A stretch of DNA of 48,213 nucleotides from an uncultured Acetobacteraceae bacterium (GTDB lineage: Bacteria > Pseudomonadota > Alphaproteobacteria > Acetobacterales > Acetobacteraceae): assembly GCA_937873175.1 (NCBI GenBank), contig CALMVT010000163.1:1-48213 (forward strand), read 5' to 3'. A model generated the notes under the pieces. The model was not told where the DNA came from. It made no database searches and saw nothing but the letters and a program-made list of their open reading frames with translations. The translations under genes were made by a program, and so were the position numbers. This document shows positions 2,365 through 38,932 of this stretch, one piece after another (the stretch's first letter is position 1; each line of letters opens with the position of its first letter).

Positions 2365-3225
2365 TCATACCGCGTCCTCCTGCGGGCGGGCCACGCCGAG
2401 GCGACCGGCCAGGTCCTCGATGAACTGCCAGGCGACCCGGCCGGACCGGGCACCGCGCGTCACCGACCATTCGACGGCCTCCGCATGCAGCGCGTCGCGC
2501 CCGATGGGCAAGGCAAGCTGGTCAGCATACCCGTCCACCATGGCAAAAAAAGCGTCCTGGTCGCAGTTGTGGAAGCCGATCCACAGGCCGAAGCGGTCGG
2601 ACAGCGAGACCTTCTCCTCGATGGCCTCGCCCGGGTTGATCGCGGTGGAACGCTCGTTGTCGATCATGTCGCGCGGCATCAGGTGGCGGCGGTTGCTGGT
2701 GGCGTAGAACAGCACGTTGGCCGGGCGCCCCTCGATGCCGCCGTCCAGCACGGATTTCAGCGCCTTGTAGTCGGCGTCCTCCCGCTCGAACGACAGGTCG
2801 TCGCACAGGATCAAGCAGCGGCGGGGACGCCCGCGCAGCAGGTTCAGCAGGTCCGGCAGGGTGCGGATGTCCTCGCGGTGGATTTCAATGAGCGCCAGGG
2901 CGCCGGGCGCGTCCCGGTTGGCAGCGGCATGCGCGGCCTTGACCAGCGAGGACTTGCCCATGCCGCGGGCGCCCCACAGCATGGCGTTGTTGGCCGGCAA
3001 GCCGCAGGCGAAGCGCAGGGTATTATCCAGCACCTGCCGCTTCTGCCGTTCGATGCCCTGCAGAAGGCCGACATCCACCCGGGACACGCGCGGCACCGGG
3101 GCCAGGTGCGCCGGCGACGGGTGCCACACGTAGGCGTCGGCGTCCCGGAGGTCCGGCGCGGGCGGCGGCAGCGGCGCCAGCCGGTCCAGCGCGTCGGCGA
3201 TGCGGGTCAGCAGGGCTGTGTCCAA
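2365..3225 (-). CDS. DUF815 family AAA+-type ATPase
   Basis: This belongs to the DUF815 family of P-loop ATPases, commonly found near tat/serS/yajC in alphaproteobacteria; its cellular role is not established. Visible motifs are a Walker A GARGMGKSS, a Walker B LILCDDLSFE, and the downstream family stretch NVLFYATSNRRHLMPRDM, with the sensor-like Asn of an AAA+ fold. I chose the TTG at 3225 because AGGAG lies five bases before it (complement of 3231-3235) and because translation from the upstream ATG at 3258 would lack a ribosome site and add only a Pro-rich leader. It is divergent from yajC. Its stop overlaps an ATG of a frame that then runs antisense to serS. Confidence 0.85.
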   Translation of the reverse strand: MDTALLTRIADALDRLAPLPPPAPDLRDADAYVWHPSPAHLAPVPRVSRVDVGLLQGIERQKRQVLDNTLRFACGLPANNAMLWGARGMGKSSLVKAAHAAANRDAPGALALIEIHREDIRTLPDLLNLLRGRPRRCLILCDDLSFEREDADYKALKSVLDGGIEGRPANVLFYATSNRRHLMPRDMIDNERSTAINPGEAIEEKVSLSDRFGLWIGFHNCDQDAFFAMVDGYADQLALPIGRDALHAEAVEWSVTRGARSGRVAWQFIEDLAGRLGVARPQEDAV

Positions 3226-3320
3226 CGGAACTCCTGGGGGCGATGCCGGGCAGGTCATGGCTTGACGGGGCGGGGCCTCAAACTATGGTCCCGGCGCAAC
3301 CACGGCAACCCAGGACCACC

Positions 3321-3656
3321 ATGCTGATCTCCCCCGCCTATGCCCAAGACGCCGTCGGCGTGACGAGCGCCGTGCTGAACTACCTGCCGATCATCCTGAT
3401 CTTCGGCGTGTTCTACTTCCTGCTGATCCGGCCGCAACAGACGCGGGCCAAGGAGATGAAGGCGATGCTCGCCGCGCTCCGCCGGGGCGACCGCGTGGTG
3501 ACGGCGGGCGGCATCCTCGGCACGGTGCAGCGGGTCAAGGAGGGCAGCAACGAGATCGAGGTCGATATCGCCCCGAACGTCCGCGTGACCGTGGTGCGCG
3601 ACACCATCACCACGGTGCTGAAGCCAGTGGCAGCGAACGACGCGAAGCCCGGCTGA
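3321..3656 (+). CDS. yajC: Preprotein translocase subunit YajC
   Basis: YajC is a small single-span inner-membrane protein that associates with SecDF in the Sec holotranslocon. The 111-residue product starts MLISPAYAQDA, has one strong transmembrane helix (YLPIILIFGVFYFLLIRP, about residues 20-38), then the family motif RPQQTRAKEMKAML and the conserved RGDRVVTAGGI. The ATG at 3321 is preceded by AGGA at about 3312; in-frame earlier starts lack this and extend into non-conserved sequence. In related genomes secD and secF follow directly. Here a terminator-like hairpin and the convergent sodB follow, so yajC seems to be transcribed alone. Confidence 0.93.
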   Translation: MLISPAYAQDAVGVTSAVLNYLPIILIFGVFYFLLIRPQQTRAKEMKAMLAALRRGDRVVTAGGILGTVQRVKEGSNEIEVDIAPNVRVTVVRDTITTVLKPVAANDAKPG

Positions 3657-35665: not shown

Positions 35666-38600
35666 ATGACCGAGTACCTAGCCCGGCTGAACCCCGAGCA
35701 GCGCCAAGCGGTCGAGGCGGTGGATGGTCCCGTCCTGGTGCTGGCCGGCGCCGGCACGGGCAAGACCCGCGTGCTGACCACCCGGTTCGCCCACATCCTA
35801 CTGACCGGCCGGGCGGCGCCGGGCCAGGTGCTGGCGGTGACGTTCACCAACAAGGCCGCCAGGGAAATGCGGGAGCGCGTCGGCGCGATCCTGGGCCGCC
35901 CGGCAGAAGGGTTGTGGCTCGGCACCTTCCACGCGTTGTGCGCCCGGATGCTGCGGCGTCATGCGGAGTTGGTGGGGCTGACCTCCGGCTTCACCATCTT
36001 GGATTCCGACGACCAGTTGCGCCTGCTGAAGCAGGTGATGGAGGCGGCGCGAATCGACTCCAAGCGTTGGGCACCCCCGGCGCTGATGGGCATGATCCAG
36101 CGCTGGAAGGACCGTGGCCTGACGCCCGACCGCGTGACGGCGGCGGAGGAAGGGGATTTCGCGGGCGGCCAGTCCCGCAGCCTGTATGCGGCGTACCAGG
36201 CGCGGCTCAAGCAACTCAACACCGCCGATTTCGGCGACCTGTTGCTGCACATGACGGAAATCCTGCGCAGCCATCCGGAGATCCTAGCGCAGTATCACCA
36301 AAGGTTCCGCTACATCCTGGTAGACGAGTATCAGGACACCAACCTGGTGCAATACTTGTGGCTGCGTTTGCTGGCGCAATCGCACAAGAACATTTGTTGC
36401 GTGGGCGATGACGATCAGTGCCTGGCAAGCGGAACGCCCATCATGCTGCCCGACCACAGCCAGCAGGCCATCGAAACCATCAAGCAAGGCGACCACGTCC
36501 TCGCCTGCTACGGAAGCGGTGAGTTTCGCCCGGCGCGCGTCACGAACACGCTTACCCGGCGCAGCAATCAGGCGCTCGTCCGTATCCGGCTTGCGGACGG
36601 GCGCGAGTTGGTCAGCACGCCAGGCCATGTCCACTTCGCCGACGTGATCCGGGGAGAAAGCCCGCAACGGTTCTATACCTACCTCATGCGGCGCGGGGAC
36701 CGATATCGCATTGGCACATCCCAAATCTACACGCAGGGGCACGCCAAGCCGATGATCGGCTACAAGCAGCGTTGCCTGCAAGAGCACGCCGATGCCGTGT
36801 GGCTCATCGACGCCTTTGCCTCAGAGGTTGAGGCGCGGGAGTGCGAACACGTTCTCAGCCTTCGCTACGGCGTGACGACGCTGCCCTTCATGGCACGCCC
36901 GACCGGCCGCATGACGGGCCTGGTTGGCGACCAATCGCGGCTTGACCGCATACACGCCAGCTTGACAGGCGGTGACGGCGCGGCCCGGCTCATGCACGAT
37001 CATGGCCTCGACGCGGATCAGCCCCATCATGTGCCGCAAACTGCCCGGGGACGGCGGCGCAACCTGACCCTCACTTTGTTCGCGGATCGGCGAGGCCGCA
37101 CGCCGATGCACCGCATCGCTGTCAGCGGCAACGACGCGGACGGGTTGGAGGCCGTGCGGGCCGCCGGGCTGAACGCGCGGCCTTACGCACGCAATCCACA
37201 GAACTGGCGGTTTGAGTCGATCTTCAAGGATGTGGCCCAGGTTGATGCCGTCCGGGTGCGGCTCGAACCGTTCATGCCGCACACGATCCTGCGCAAAGCG
37301 AATTTGCTCGGCAAACCGCTTACGCTCCGCCCGGCGTCGCAGGTCCGACCCGGCATGATGCTGGCCGGCGTGGACGGGCGGCATCACGCGGTCGTCTCCG
37401 TCGAGACCATACCCGACGCGATCACCGTCCATGACCTCGACGTCGAGGGCGTCCACAACTTCGTCGCCAACGGCATCGTCACGCATAACTCGATCTACTC
37501 GTGGCGTGGTGCCGAGGTTGAAAACATCCTGCGCTTCGAGAAGGACTTCCCCGGCGCGCAGATCGTCAAGCTGGAGCGCAACTACCGCTCCACCGCGCCG
37601 ATCCTCGCCGCCGCCGCCGGGCTGATCGCCAACAACGAGGGACGGTTGGGCAAGACGTTGCGGTCCGGCCGCAACGACGCCCACGGCGAGAAGGTCAGCG
37701 TCGTCAGTCTGTGGGATTCGGACGAGGAAGCCCGCATGGTCGGCGACCGGATTGAGGCGCTGCGCCGCGAGGGCCACGCGCTGGCGGAGGTGGCGATCCT
37801 AGTCCGCACCGGCGCGCAGACCCGCGCCTTTGAGGAGCGGATGATCACGCTCGGCCTGCCATACCGCGTGGTGGGCGGCCTACGGTTCTACGAGCGTGCT
37901 GAAATCCGCGACGCCATTGCCTACATGCGCGTGTTGCACCAGCCGTCCGACGACCTGGCGTTCGAGCGCATCGTCAACGTGCCTCGGCGCGGCGTGGGGG
38001 ACGTTGCGTTGCGCGCCATGTACGGGGAAGCCCGCGCGCAGCAGATCCCGCTCGCTCTGGCCGGCGAGCGCCTGATGCAGTCGGGCGGGCTGAAAGGCCG
38101 GGTTGGGGCGGCACTGAAAGAGTTGTTCCAGGCCTTTGCCCGCTGGCGCGAGGAATTGCCGCGCGACGGCCATGTGCTGACGCTTGCAAAAATGCTGGAC
38201 GAGAGTGGCTACACCGAGATGTGGAAGCAGGACAAGTCGCCGGATGCGCCGGGGCGGCTGGAGAACCTGAAGGAGCTGGTGCGGGCGCTCGCCGACTTTG
38301 AAACGCTGGCCGGGTTCCTGGATCATGTTTCTCTGGTGATGGAAAACGAGCAGAACGCCGAAGGCGACCGCGCCAGCATGATGACGCTGCACGGCGCAAA
38401 GGGATTGGAGTTCGACACCGTGTTCCTGCCGGGCTGGGAGGAGGGCCTGTTCCCGAGCCAGCGCACCCTGGACGAGGGCGGGCTGAAGGGGCTGGAAGAG
38501 GAACGGCGCCTGGCCTATGTCGGCCTGACCCGCGCCCGCAAGCTCGCCGTGGTAAGCTACGCCGCGAACCGGCGCTTGTACGCCAACTGGCAGAGCAGCA

Positions 38601-38932
38601 TCCCGAGCCGCTTCGTGGACGAGTTGCCGGACGCGCATGTGGAGCGCGCAGGCTCGGCGGCGATGCAGCGAGAAACCCGGCTGATGTCCGCCCCCAGCGT
38701 GTTCGCCGGCGGCCCGCTTACCGCCCGGCGGCCTGCGGCGTCGCGCGTCGTCGAGGCTTGGGAGCAGCCGGCGCGGCCGGCCCGGCAGGACGCCATCGCG
38801 GTGGGCAGCCGGGTGTTTCATCAGAAGTTCGGATACGGCCAGGTGCTGGCCGTGGATGACGACCGGCTCGACATCGCGTTCGAGAAGGCCGGGCAGAAAC
38901 GCCTCCTGGACCGCTTCGTGGAAAAGGCATGA
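35666..38932 (+). CDS. uvrD: UvrD/PcrA-type DNA helicase with an in-frame intein
   Basis: An SF1 helicase that unwinds DNA in excision and mismatch repair. The 1088-residue precursor has Walker A AGAGTGKTRVL (about residues 27-37), motif Ia TFTNKAAREM, motif II LVDEYQDTN, and the split motif III GDDDQ/SIYSWRGAE, then RNYRST, VGGLRFYERAEIRD, TLHGAKGLEFD, FLPGWEEGLFP and LTRARK. Residues 252-608 are an intein; removing them leaves 731 residues, the normal size. A C-terminal QKFGYGQVLAVDDD Tudor-like tail is also present. The start ATG 35666 fits MTEYLARLNPEQRQAV. Splicing must occur for activity because the intein interrupts motif III. prmA overlaps the end by ATGA. Confidence 0.95.
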   Translation: MTEYLARLNPEQRQAVEAVDGPVLVLAGAGTGKTRVLTTRFAHILLTGRAAPGQVLAVTFTNKAAREMRERVGAILGRPAEGLWLGTFHALCARMLRRHAELVGLTSGFTILDSDDQLRLLKQVMEAARIDSKRWAPPALMGMIQRWKDRGLTPDRVTAAEEGDFAGGQSRSLYAAYQARLKQLNTADFGDLLLHMTEILRSHPEILAQYHQRFRYILVDEYQDTNLVQYLWLRLLAQSHKNICCVGDDDQCLASGTPIMLPDHSQQAIETIKQGDHVLACYGSGEFRPARVTNTLTRRSNQALVRIRLADGRELVSTPGHVHFADVIRGESPQRFYTYLMRRGDRYRIGTSQIYTQGHAKPMIGYKQRCLQEHADAVWLIDAFASEVEARECEHVLSLRYGVTTLPFMARPTGRMTGLVGDQSRLDRIHASLTGGDGAARLMHDHGLDADQPHHVPQTARGRRRNLTLTLFADRRGRTPMHRIAVSGNDADGLEAVRAAGLNARPYARNPQNWRFESIFKDVAQVDAVRVRLEPFMPHTILRKANLLGKPLTLRPASQVRPGMMLAGVDGRHHAVVSVETIPDAITVHDLDVEGVHNFVANGIVTHNSIYSWRGAEVENILRFEKDFPGAQIVKLERNYRSTAPILAAAAGLIANNEGRLGKTLRSGRNDAHGEKVSVVSLWDSDEEARMVGDRIEALRREGHALAEVAILVRTGAQTRAFEERMITLGLPYRVVGGLRFYERAEIRDAIAYMRVLHQPSDDLAFERIVNVPRRGVGDVALRAMYGEARAQQIPLALAGERLMQSGGLKGRVGAALKELFQAFARWREELPRDGHVLTLAKMLDESGYTEMWKQDKSPDAPGRLENLKELVRALADFETLAGFLDHVSLVMENEQNAEGDRASMMTLHGAKGLEFDTVFLPGWEEGLFPSQRTLDEGGLKGLEEERRLAYVGLTRARKLAVVSYAANRRLYANWQSSIPSRFVDELPDAHVERAGSAAMQRETRLMSAPSVFAGGPLTARRPAASRVVEAWEQPARPARQDAIAVGSRVFHQKFGYGQVLAVDDDRLDIAFEKAGQKRLLDRFVEKA
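36419..37489 (+). other. Intein in UvrD, with GIY-YIG-like insert
   Basis: A 357-residue intein (precursor residues 252-608) begins with Cys252 after GDDDQ and ends with VTHN before Ser609. The splicing blocks are visible: block A CLASGTPIMLPDHSQQAIETI; block B ELVSTPGHVHF (the TxxH motif); block F VHDLDVEGVHNFVANG; block G IVTHN plus Ser at +1. So the intein looks active: the N-terminal Cys, penultimate His and terminal Asn are all in place. A middle insert of about 235 residues holds YTYLM (338), YRIGTS (347), an Arg (369) and Glu residues in the 387-394 helix, an order like GIY-YIG nucleases. No LAGLIDADG motif is seen. Confidence 0.9.

Follow-up and report, generated by a model that had tools for sequence, protein, structure and literature searches.

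Families of homing endonucleases are mostly confined to certain types of carrier. The familiar homing inteins, of which PI-SceI is an example, carry a LAGLIDADG (DOD) nuclease between the two parts of the Hint splicing domain, lie in conserved genes of DNA metabolism and show a sporadic distribution that is discordant with that of their hosts. The intein described here likewise holds a nuclease-like domain inside Hint, is inserted at a specific site in a conserved DNA-metabolism gene and shows host-discordant spread; unlike those inteins, it has a predicted ββαβα core with Tyr, Arg and Glu at the key positions and gives no LAGLIDADG signal.

In the available portions of the papers concerned, phage R2 inteins carry LAGLIDADG enzymes and introns mainly HNH and GIY-YIG enzymes (PMC8772380), eukaryotic inteins carry LAGLIDADG enzymes (PMC5784728), and GIY-YIG is listed as a homing endonuclease family in a passage that gives no intein example (PMC7765530). 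A survey published in 2006 describes GIY-YIG enzymes as absent from inteins, and the literature searched, largely without subscription papers, yielded neither a report after that survey of a GIY-YIG nuclease within an intein nor the phrase "GIY-YIG intein". As far as could be found, this is thus a nuclease type known from introns and phages and apparently new inside inteins. In AceL NrdHF the gene is fractured and its intein split, and a GIY-YIG gene standing on its own separates the intein halves (PMC7891396); as here, a GIY-YIG nuclease is tied to an intein, but there it is a separate gene, whereas here it is a domain within a continuous intein. The annotated inteins of SPO1 gp34.33 and CampHawk UvrD occupy the same helicase motif III site as the present one. 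That of SPO1 has the same core, but it is only 275 residues long and is without the extra strand-helix region found here; the part of its annotation note available gives no nuclease type. The CampHawk UvrD intein is named in a passage that likewise mentions no nuclease type (PMC3868849).

The window, the whole stretch of 48,213 nucleotides that was analysed, contains on its forward strand a uvrD/pcrA-type helicase gene (35666–38932) encoding a precursor of 1088 residues, with matches to PF00580, PF13361 and TIGR01073 (pcrA), the last at 760.6 bits and below its cut-off of 911.2. By comparison with the empty alleles of related genomes, the N-extein (35666–36418) ends in CCVGDDDQ; it is followed by an intein of 357 residues (36419–37489; precursor residues 252–608) and by the C-extein (37490–38932, including the stop codon), which starts with SIYSWRGAE, so that helicase motif III is split as VGDDDQ/SIYSWRGA. 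All of the splicing motifs are present: Cys1 and T67..H70 in the N-terminal Hint part (residues 1–77; 36419–36649), His356-Asn357 at the end of the C-terminal Hint part (residues 306–357; 37334–37489) and a Ser at position +1. Both PF14890 (2e-12) and TIGR01443, the latter in the C-terminal part, score above their own cut-offs. The AlphaFold2 model of the whole intein, made with 86 sequences picked from 113, has a pLDDT of 94.0 and a pTM of 0.91 and matches solved Hint domains at Z of about 20. Single-sequence searches of Pfam, NCBIfam and the PDB with the intein lead to the splicing domain. Fold searches with the full intein also return Hint domains, so that families missing from them may still be present, and the nuclease core was therefore modelled by itself.

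This core (intein residues 85–150; 36671–36868, forward strand) follows the N-terminal Hint part. DSSP applied to the AlphaFold2 model of the intein assigned strands at residues 85–92 and 95–102, a helix at 114–121, a strand at 126–133 and a helix at 136–150, and the same order of elements was obtained when the core was modelled alone (pLDDT 89.4, pTM 0.77). An earlier note, made from the sequence, had proposed that the intein carries a GIY-YIG-like core instead of LAGLIDADG. That proposal held: a ββαβα model and an in-register match to a GIY-YIG profile were both found, and LAGLIDADG was not detected. The motifs behind it were placed correctly for YRIGTS (precursor residue 347), YKQR (366–369, with Arg369) and SEVEAREC (386–393), but YTYLM begins at residue 337 rather than 338; the codons for FYTYLM start at nucleotide 36671, and YGVTT lies at residue 401. 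The Glu-rich helix is real, and its conserved Glu is Glu394 (intein E143), directly after SEVEAREC and not within it. In the second motif the conserved residue is not a Tyr but Arg348 (intein R97), an Arg in all 113 cores aligned.

Those 113 cores were obtained after setting aside 11 loci whose script-set intein bounds fell outside 190–420 residues, 12 truncated, mini or unrelated inteins and the loci numbered below L016, and after dropping rows more than 90% identical to a retained one. Conservation is high throughout: Tyr339 (intein Y88) is kept in 111, Arg348 in 113, Gly350 (G99) in 112, Arg369 (R118) in 111, Trp379 (W128) in 113 and Glu394 in 112. In Eco29kI and Hpy188I the first-motif Tyr is the presumed general base, according to the part of that paper available (PMC4081073). 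Because the second Tyr is replaced by an invariant Arg, the core was kept out of canonical GIY-YIG membership. A Lys occupies the same position in six sequences of the T5orf172/MUG113 families, which we take to be kin of GIY-YIG.

Profile–profile comparison with hhalign was carried out against a profile of 31 GIY-YIG sequences taken from genomes. The core profile scored 28.4 (P 5.6e-5, probability 66), as compared with a maximum of 17.3 and a mean of 10.1 in 150 column shuffles and with 8.5 for the reversed profile. In the resulting alignment VYLM falls on the family VY, RVG falls on YVG and the two Glu residues coincide, which puts the Tyr, Gly and Glu in register; Arg369 does not line up with the family Arg, and its equation with that residue depends solely on its position within the first helix. 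A profile of viral cores only (51 sequences) reached 26.8 against a maximum of 15.8 in 100 shuffles, a profile of bacterial cores only (62 sequences, the window included) reached 16.6 and barely exceeded its shuffle maximum of 15.8, and the full core profile scored just 18.7 when the target was reduced to its UvrC-only subset and 19.6 with the non-UvrC subset. The profile signal is thus carried mainly by the viral cores and by the complete target set, and depends on how broad both sets are. For comparison, the core scored 14.5 with the intein's own 164–301 region and 12.2 with LAGLIDADG_3, which was not supported as a family for the core. The T5orf172/MUG113 families, whose KIG motif suggested a closer kinship, gave no match (10.1, six sequences).

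Residues 164–301 (36908–37321, forward strand) have a confident predicted fold of two helices followed by a strand-strand-helix-strand-helix arrangement, and are conserved in 63 sequences with the consensus RRNxxVTLCGDRRGxxPMHRIS...WRFET. A Pfam search with the 63 copies gave no convincing family, the weak matches being HTH_33 in four members (best 0.0037) and Arm-DNA-bind_3 in four (best 0.092). From its position, this region is presumed to be the DNA-recognition part of the intein. Six shorter relatives of 274–286 residues (L006, L007, L008, L010, L011 and L012) keep the core and are missing most of this region.

The core is carried by helicase inteins of bacteria and phages and by methylase inteins. 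At an E value of 0.001, relatives of the intein were found in 66 phage and three plasmid records. IMG/VR gave at least 92 related stretches and a set of one-per-species genomes gave 159, of which 80 were kept in each case; in the viral and in the genomic set alike, the core profile detects 73 of the 80 loci, which had been fetched by intein similarity and had also served to build the profile, and it matches none of the control loci (30 for PF01541, 13 for T5orf172/MUG113 and 15 for LAGLIDADG_3). By record title the hosts include Pseudomonadota, Acidobacteriota, Actinomycetota and Chloroflexota, and many of the records are metagenome-assembled genomes, with Roseomonas, Azospirillum and Geothrix among the isolates. 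Three titles look at odds with the gene, possibly through binning errors: L172 (Proteobacteria) and L121 (Trueperaceae) have exteins that group with Chloroflexota and Actinomycetota, respectively, and L163, titled as a Bifidobacterium breve metagenome-assembled genome, holds the end of a uvrD intein. Within the family, a scan of 150 genomes finds the intein in the genome of the window and in a single further one, and a third match is confined to the N-terminal splicing part. Within the phylum, 398 genomes yield the core twice: in the genome of the window and in another, where it lies in a methylase intein at WQHEP/C.

ParB/DNA methylase inteins with the core at this same site include L010, which is among the Streptococcus suis phage records, and L255; other viral loci, such as L017, have a core-bearing intein at FMGNHEW/C, and both sites are unlike that in the helicase. 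In the annotated phage records the core falls in genes labelled as helicase, as methyltransferase or methylase, as ParB-like or as hypothetical, and other phage records carry no annotation. No free-standing copy of the core was recognised among the 60 of 66 phage records listed and four plasmid records, although such copies may exist. On a Providencia rettgeri plasmid (L007, NZ_CP077319.1), the intein type lies in a ParB/methylase reading frame at 3001–3627, with no gene annotated under the match in an incomplete table. Two inteins apparently interrupt a helicase of Klebsiella phage KP13-16 (L015, 725–4333): one, close to the P-loop, has LAGLIDADG-like motifs, as read by eye, and the other, at motif III, has the GIY-YIG-like core.

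The earlier suggestion that the intein might still be mobile gains indirect support from empty alleles, host-discordant inteins, in-frame loss of the core and purifying selection. Two genomes of the same genus (G017 and G108) have a uvrD gene that encodes 741 residues and is without the insert, the junctions reading CAG/TCG and CAG/TCC, so that the insertion is precise, and a third (G298) has an intein of 357 residues at the site. Across the 20 genomes searched for uvrD, the core was present at the fetched locus in two, the window's own and G298. In the set of 64 intein-bearing uvrD genes, near relatives are less alike in the intein than in the exteins (0.92 versus 0.98 and 0.65 versus 0.76), and this is reversed in some distant pairs, such as L107 (Burkholderiales) and L123 (Holophagaceae), with 0.55 for the intein versus 0.37 for the extein. 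Two Azospirillum species have exteins that group as sisters with a support of 100, and their inteins fall in different supported groups; constraining the two inteins to group together lowers the log-likelihood by 195 units (p-AU 1.3e-5), in quick trees built from 45 of the 64 rows and for a pair picked after the trees had been seen. These trees indicate that the two inteins were inherited discordantly with their hosts, as would result from horizontal movement at the uvrD site. L172 was not counted as an instance of inter-phylum transfer because its extein groups with Chloroflexota, and pairs with L125 were not stressed because its extein is a long branch.

In the one pair for which dN/dS was calculated, the window and its sister L096, the values were 0.078 for the core (residues 78–163), 0.138 and 0.150 for the splicing parts, 0.113 for residues 164–305 and 0.018 and 0.052 for the exteins. 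The dS values of intein and extein are alike at about 0.3 (0.29–0.38 throughout), so that these two inteins probably descended with their hosts, and a recent transfer between them was dropped from consideration. Loss of the core can also be traced: L165 is identical to L152 at 246 of 252 residues and lacks an in-frame stretch of 107 residues containing the core, which is also missing in L164, L170, L173 and L175 and mostly missing in L156. Judged from these genes, the pattern of presence and loss is that expected of a homing domain that spread and was later lost.

Collectively, these data point to a homing intein that carries a divergent GIY-YIG-like endonuclease as its nuclease domain, a reading to which we assign a probability of roughly 0.8. 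The precursor would splice out the intein to leave an active UvrD; the excised intein, guided by residues 164–301, would bind and cut intein-less uvrD alleles near GATGACGATCAG^TCGATCTACTCG, and repair would copy the intein into the cut allele. For catalysis, Tyr339 would be the general base and Glu394 the metal-binding residue, together with Arg369, and Arg348 would stand in the place of the second Tyr. It is unlikely, although worth weighing, that the fold no longer cuts DNA and is retained for DNA binding or for tuning the splicing of the helicase. The exchange of the second Tyr for Arg in every one of the 113 cores fits such a loss of function, as do the cores that deviate at key positions (L174, L172, L160 and L041, together with L167, a row outside the 113 with Gly at the Glu position) and the open frames still found in some same-site inteins without the core. 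However, all five of the Tyr, Arg, Gly, Arg and Glu positions are retained in 109 of the 113 cores, only four deviating at one or more; the single pair tested is under purifying selection; and the discordance with hosts requires a driver. Moreover, frames that stay intact after loss of the core suggest that splicing may not need it.

Structural comparisons bear on whether a homing endonuclease with a GIY-YIG-like core is to be preferred over a distinct small fold, of a nuclease or of a DNA-binding domain, that has come to resemble GIY-YIG convergently. When VIA re-aligned PDB entries to the core, the top six were UvrC GIY-YIG domains of two proteins; these matches are weak (Z 4.6–4.7 over 64–71 residues, r.m.s. 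deviation 3.3–4.0, with 65 residues and a deviation of 3.4 at Z 4.7), no entry reached Z 5 and lower entries included a ribosomal protein (3.8), Slx1 (3.7) and 1zg2 (3.6). Foldseek with the core in the PDB placed arabinose isomerases first at an E value of 0.14, with nothing at 0.001 and none of the UvrC entries among the 50 rows it showed by itself. The Pfam GIY-YIG models are absent from the 24 families matched by any of the 113 cores at E up to 1, and the PF01541 match in the window's own genome is on another contig; a PDB sequence search with the core alignment profile gave no matches up to E 10, and PHROGs gave scattered matches with a best E of 0.019. Convergence would account for the missing family match, the low Z values and the arabinose isomerases, but it is rendered quite improbable by the order of elements and the places of Tyr, Gly and Glu, which are the same as in GIY-YIG, by a profile score beyond that of every shuffle, and by the viral structure library BFVD. 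There, a phage methyltransferase, a phage helicase and one unnamed row were found below an E value of 0.001, and after these, the core's own kin, ranks 4–50 (E 0.03–0.33) contain 21 rows with an informative name, of which 18 by manual count are endonucleases, named as GIY-YIG, homing, intron-type or nuclease-associated modular, with one called just "putative endonuclease".

The core thus resembles GIY-YIG nucleases in its β-β-α-β-α order, its first-motif Tyr, second-motif Gly and last-helix Glu and its weak structural match to UvrC, and differs from them in its location inside an intein, its invariant Arg for the second Tyr, a long loop before the first helix and the absence of a Pfam match. 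It is best classed as a divergent GIY-YIG-like nuclease outside PF01541. That the intein is instead an ordinary LAGLIDADG homing intein decayed past recognition, with residues 184–282 as one half, is scarcely credible: the order of elements there (helix, two strands, helix, strand or strands, helix) is loosely like a LAGLIDADG half, but no LAGLIDADG or HNH family was matched by the intein at E up to 5 and no LAGLIDADG family by the 63 copies of residues 164–301 at E up to 1, the hhalign score of that region with LAGLIDADG_3 (16.3) is below the maximum of 18.8 in 60 shuffles, that of the core is 12.2, and phage relatives such as L010 and L011 keep the core without most of the region.

Taken together, the inteins with a divergent GIY-YIG-like nuclease probably form an unrecognised class of homing intein, spread over several bacterial phyla and tailed phages at helicase and methylase sites, with an active site in which Arg replaces Tyr. 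Pfam does not detect the core here, so it goes without a name in the UvrD and methylase genes that carry it. If the reading is correct, the splicing cassette would have captured a GIY-YIG-type nuclease too, with an altered active site, and the class would contrast with the GIY-YIG enzymes described, in the sources as available, in introns, in free-standing genes or between split-intein halves. Filled and empty alleles within one genus, and inteins with and without the core, would provide natural test pairs, and the class may be a source of new site-specific cutters.
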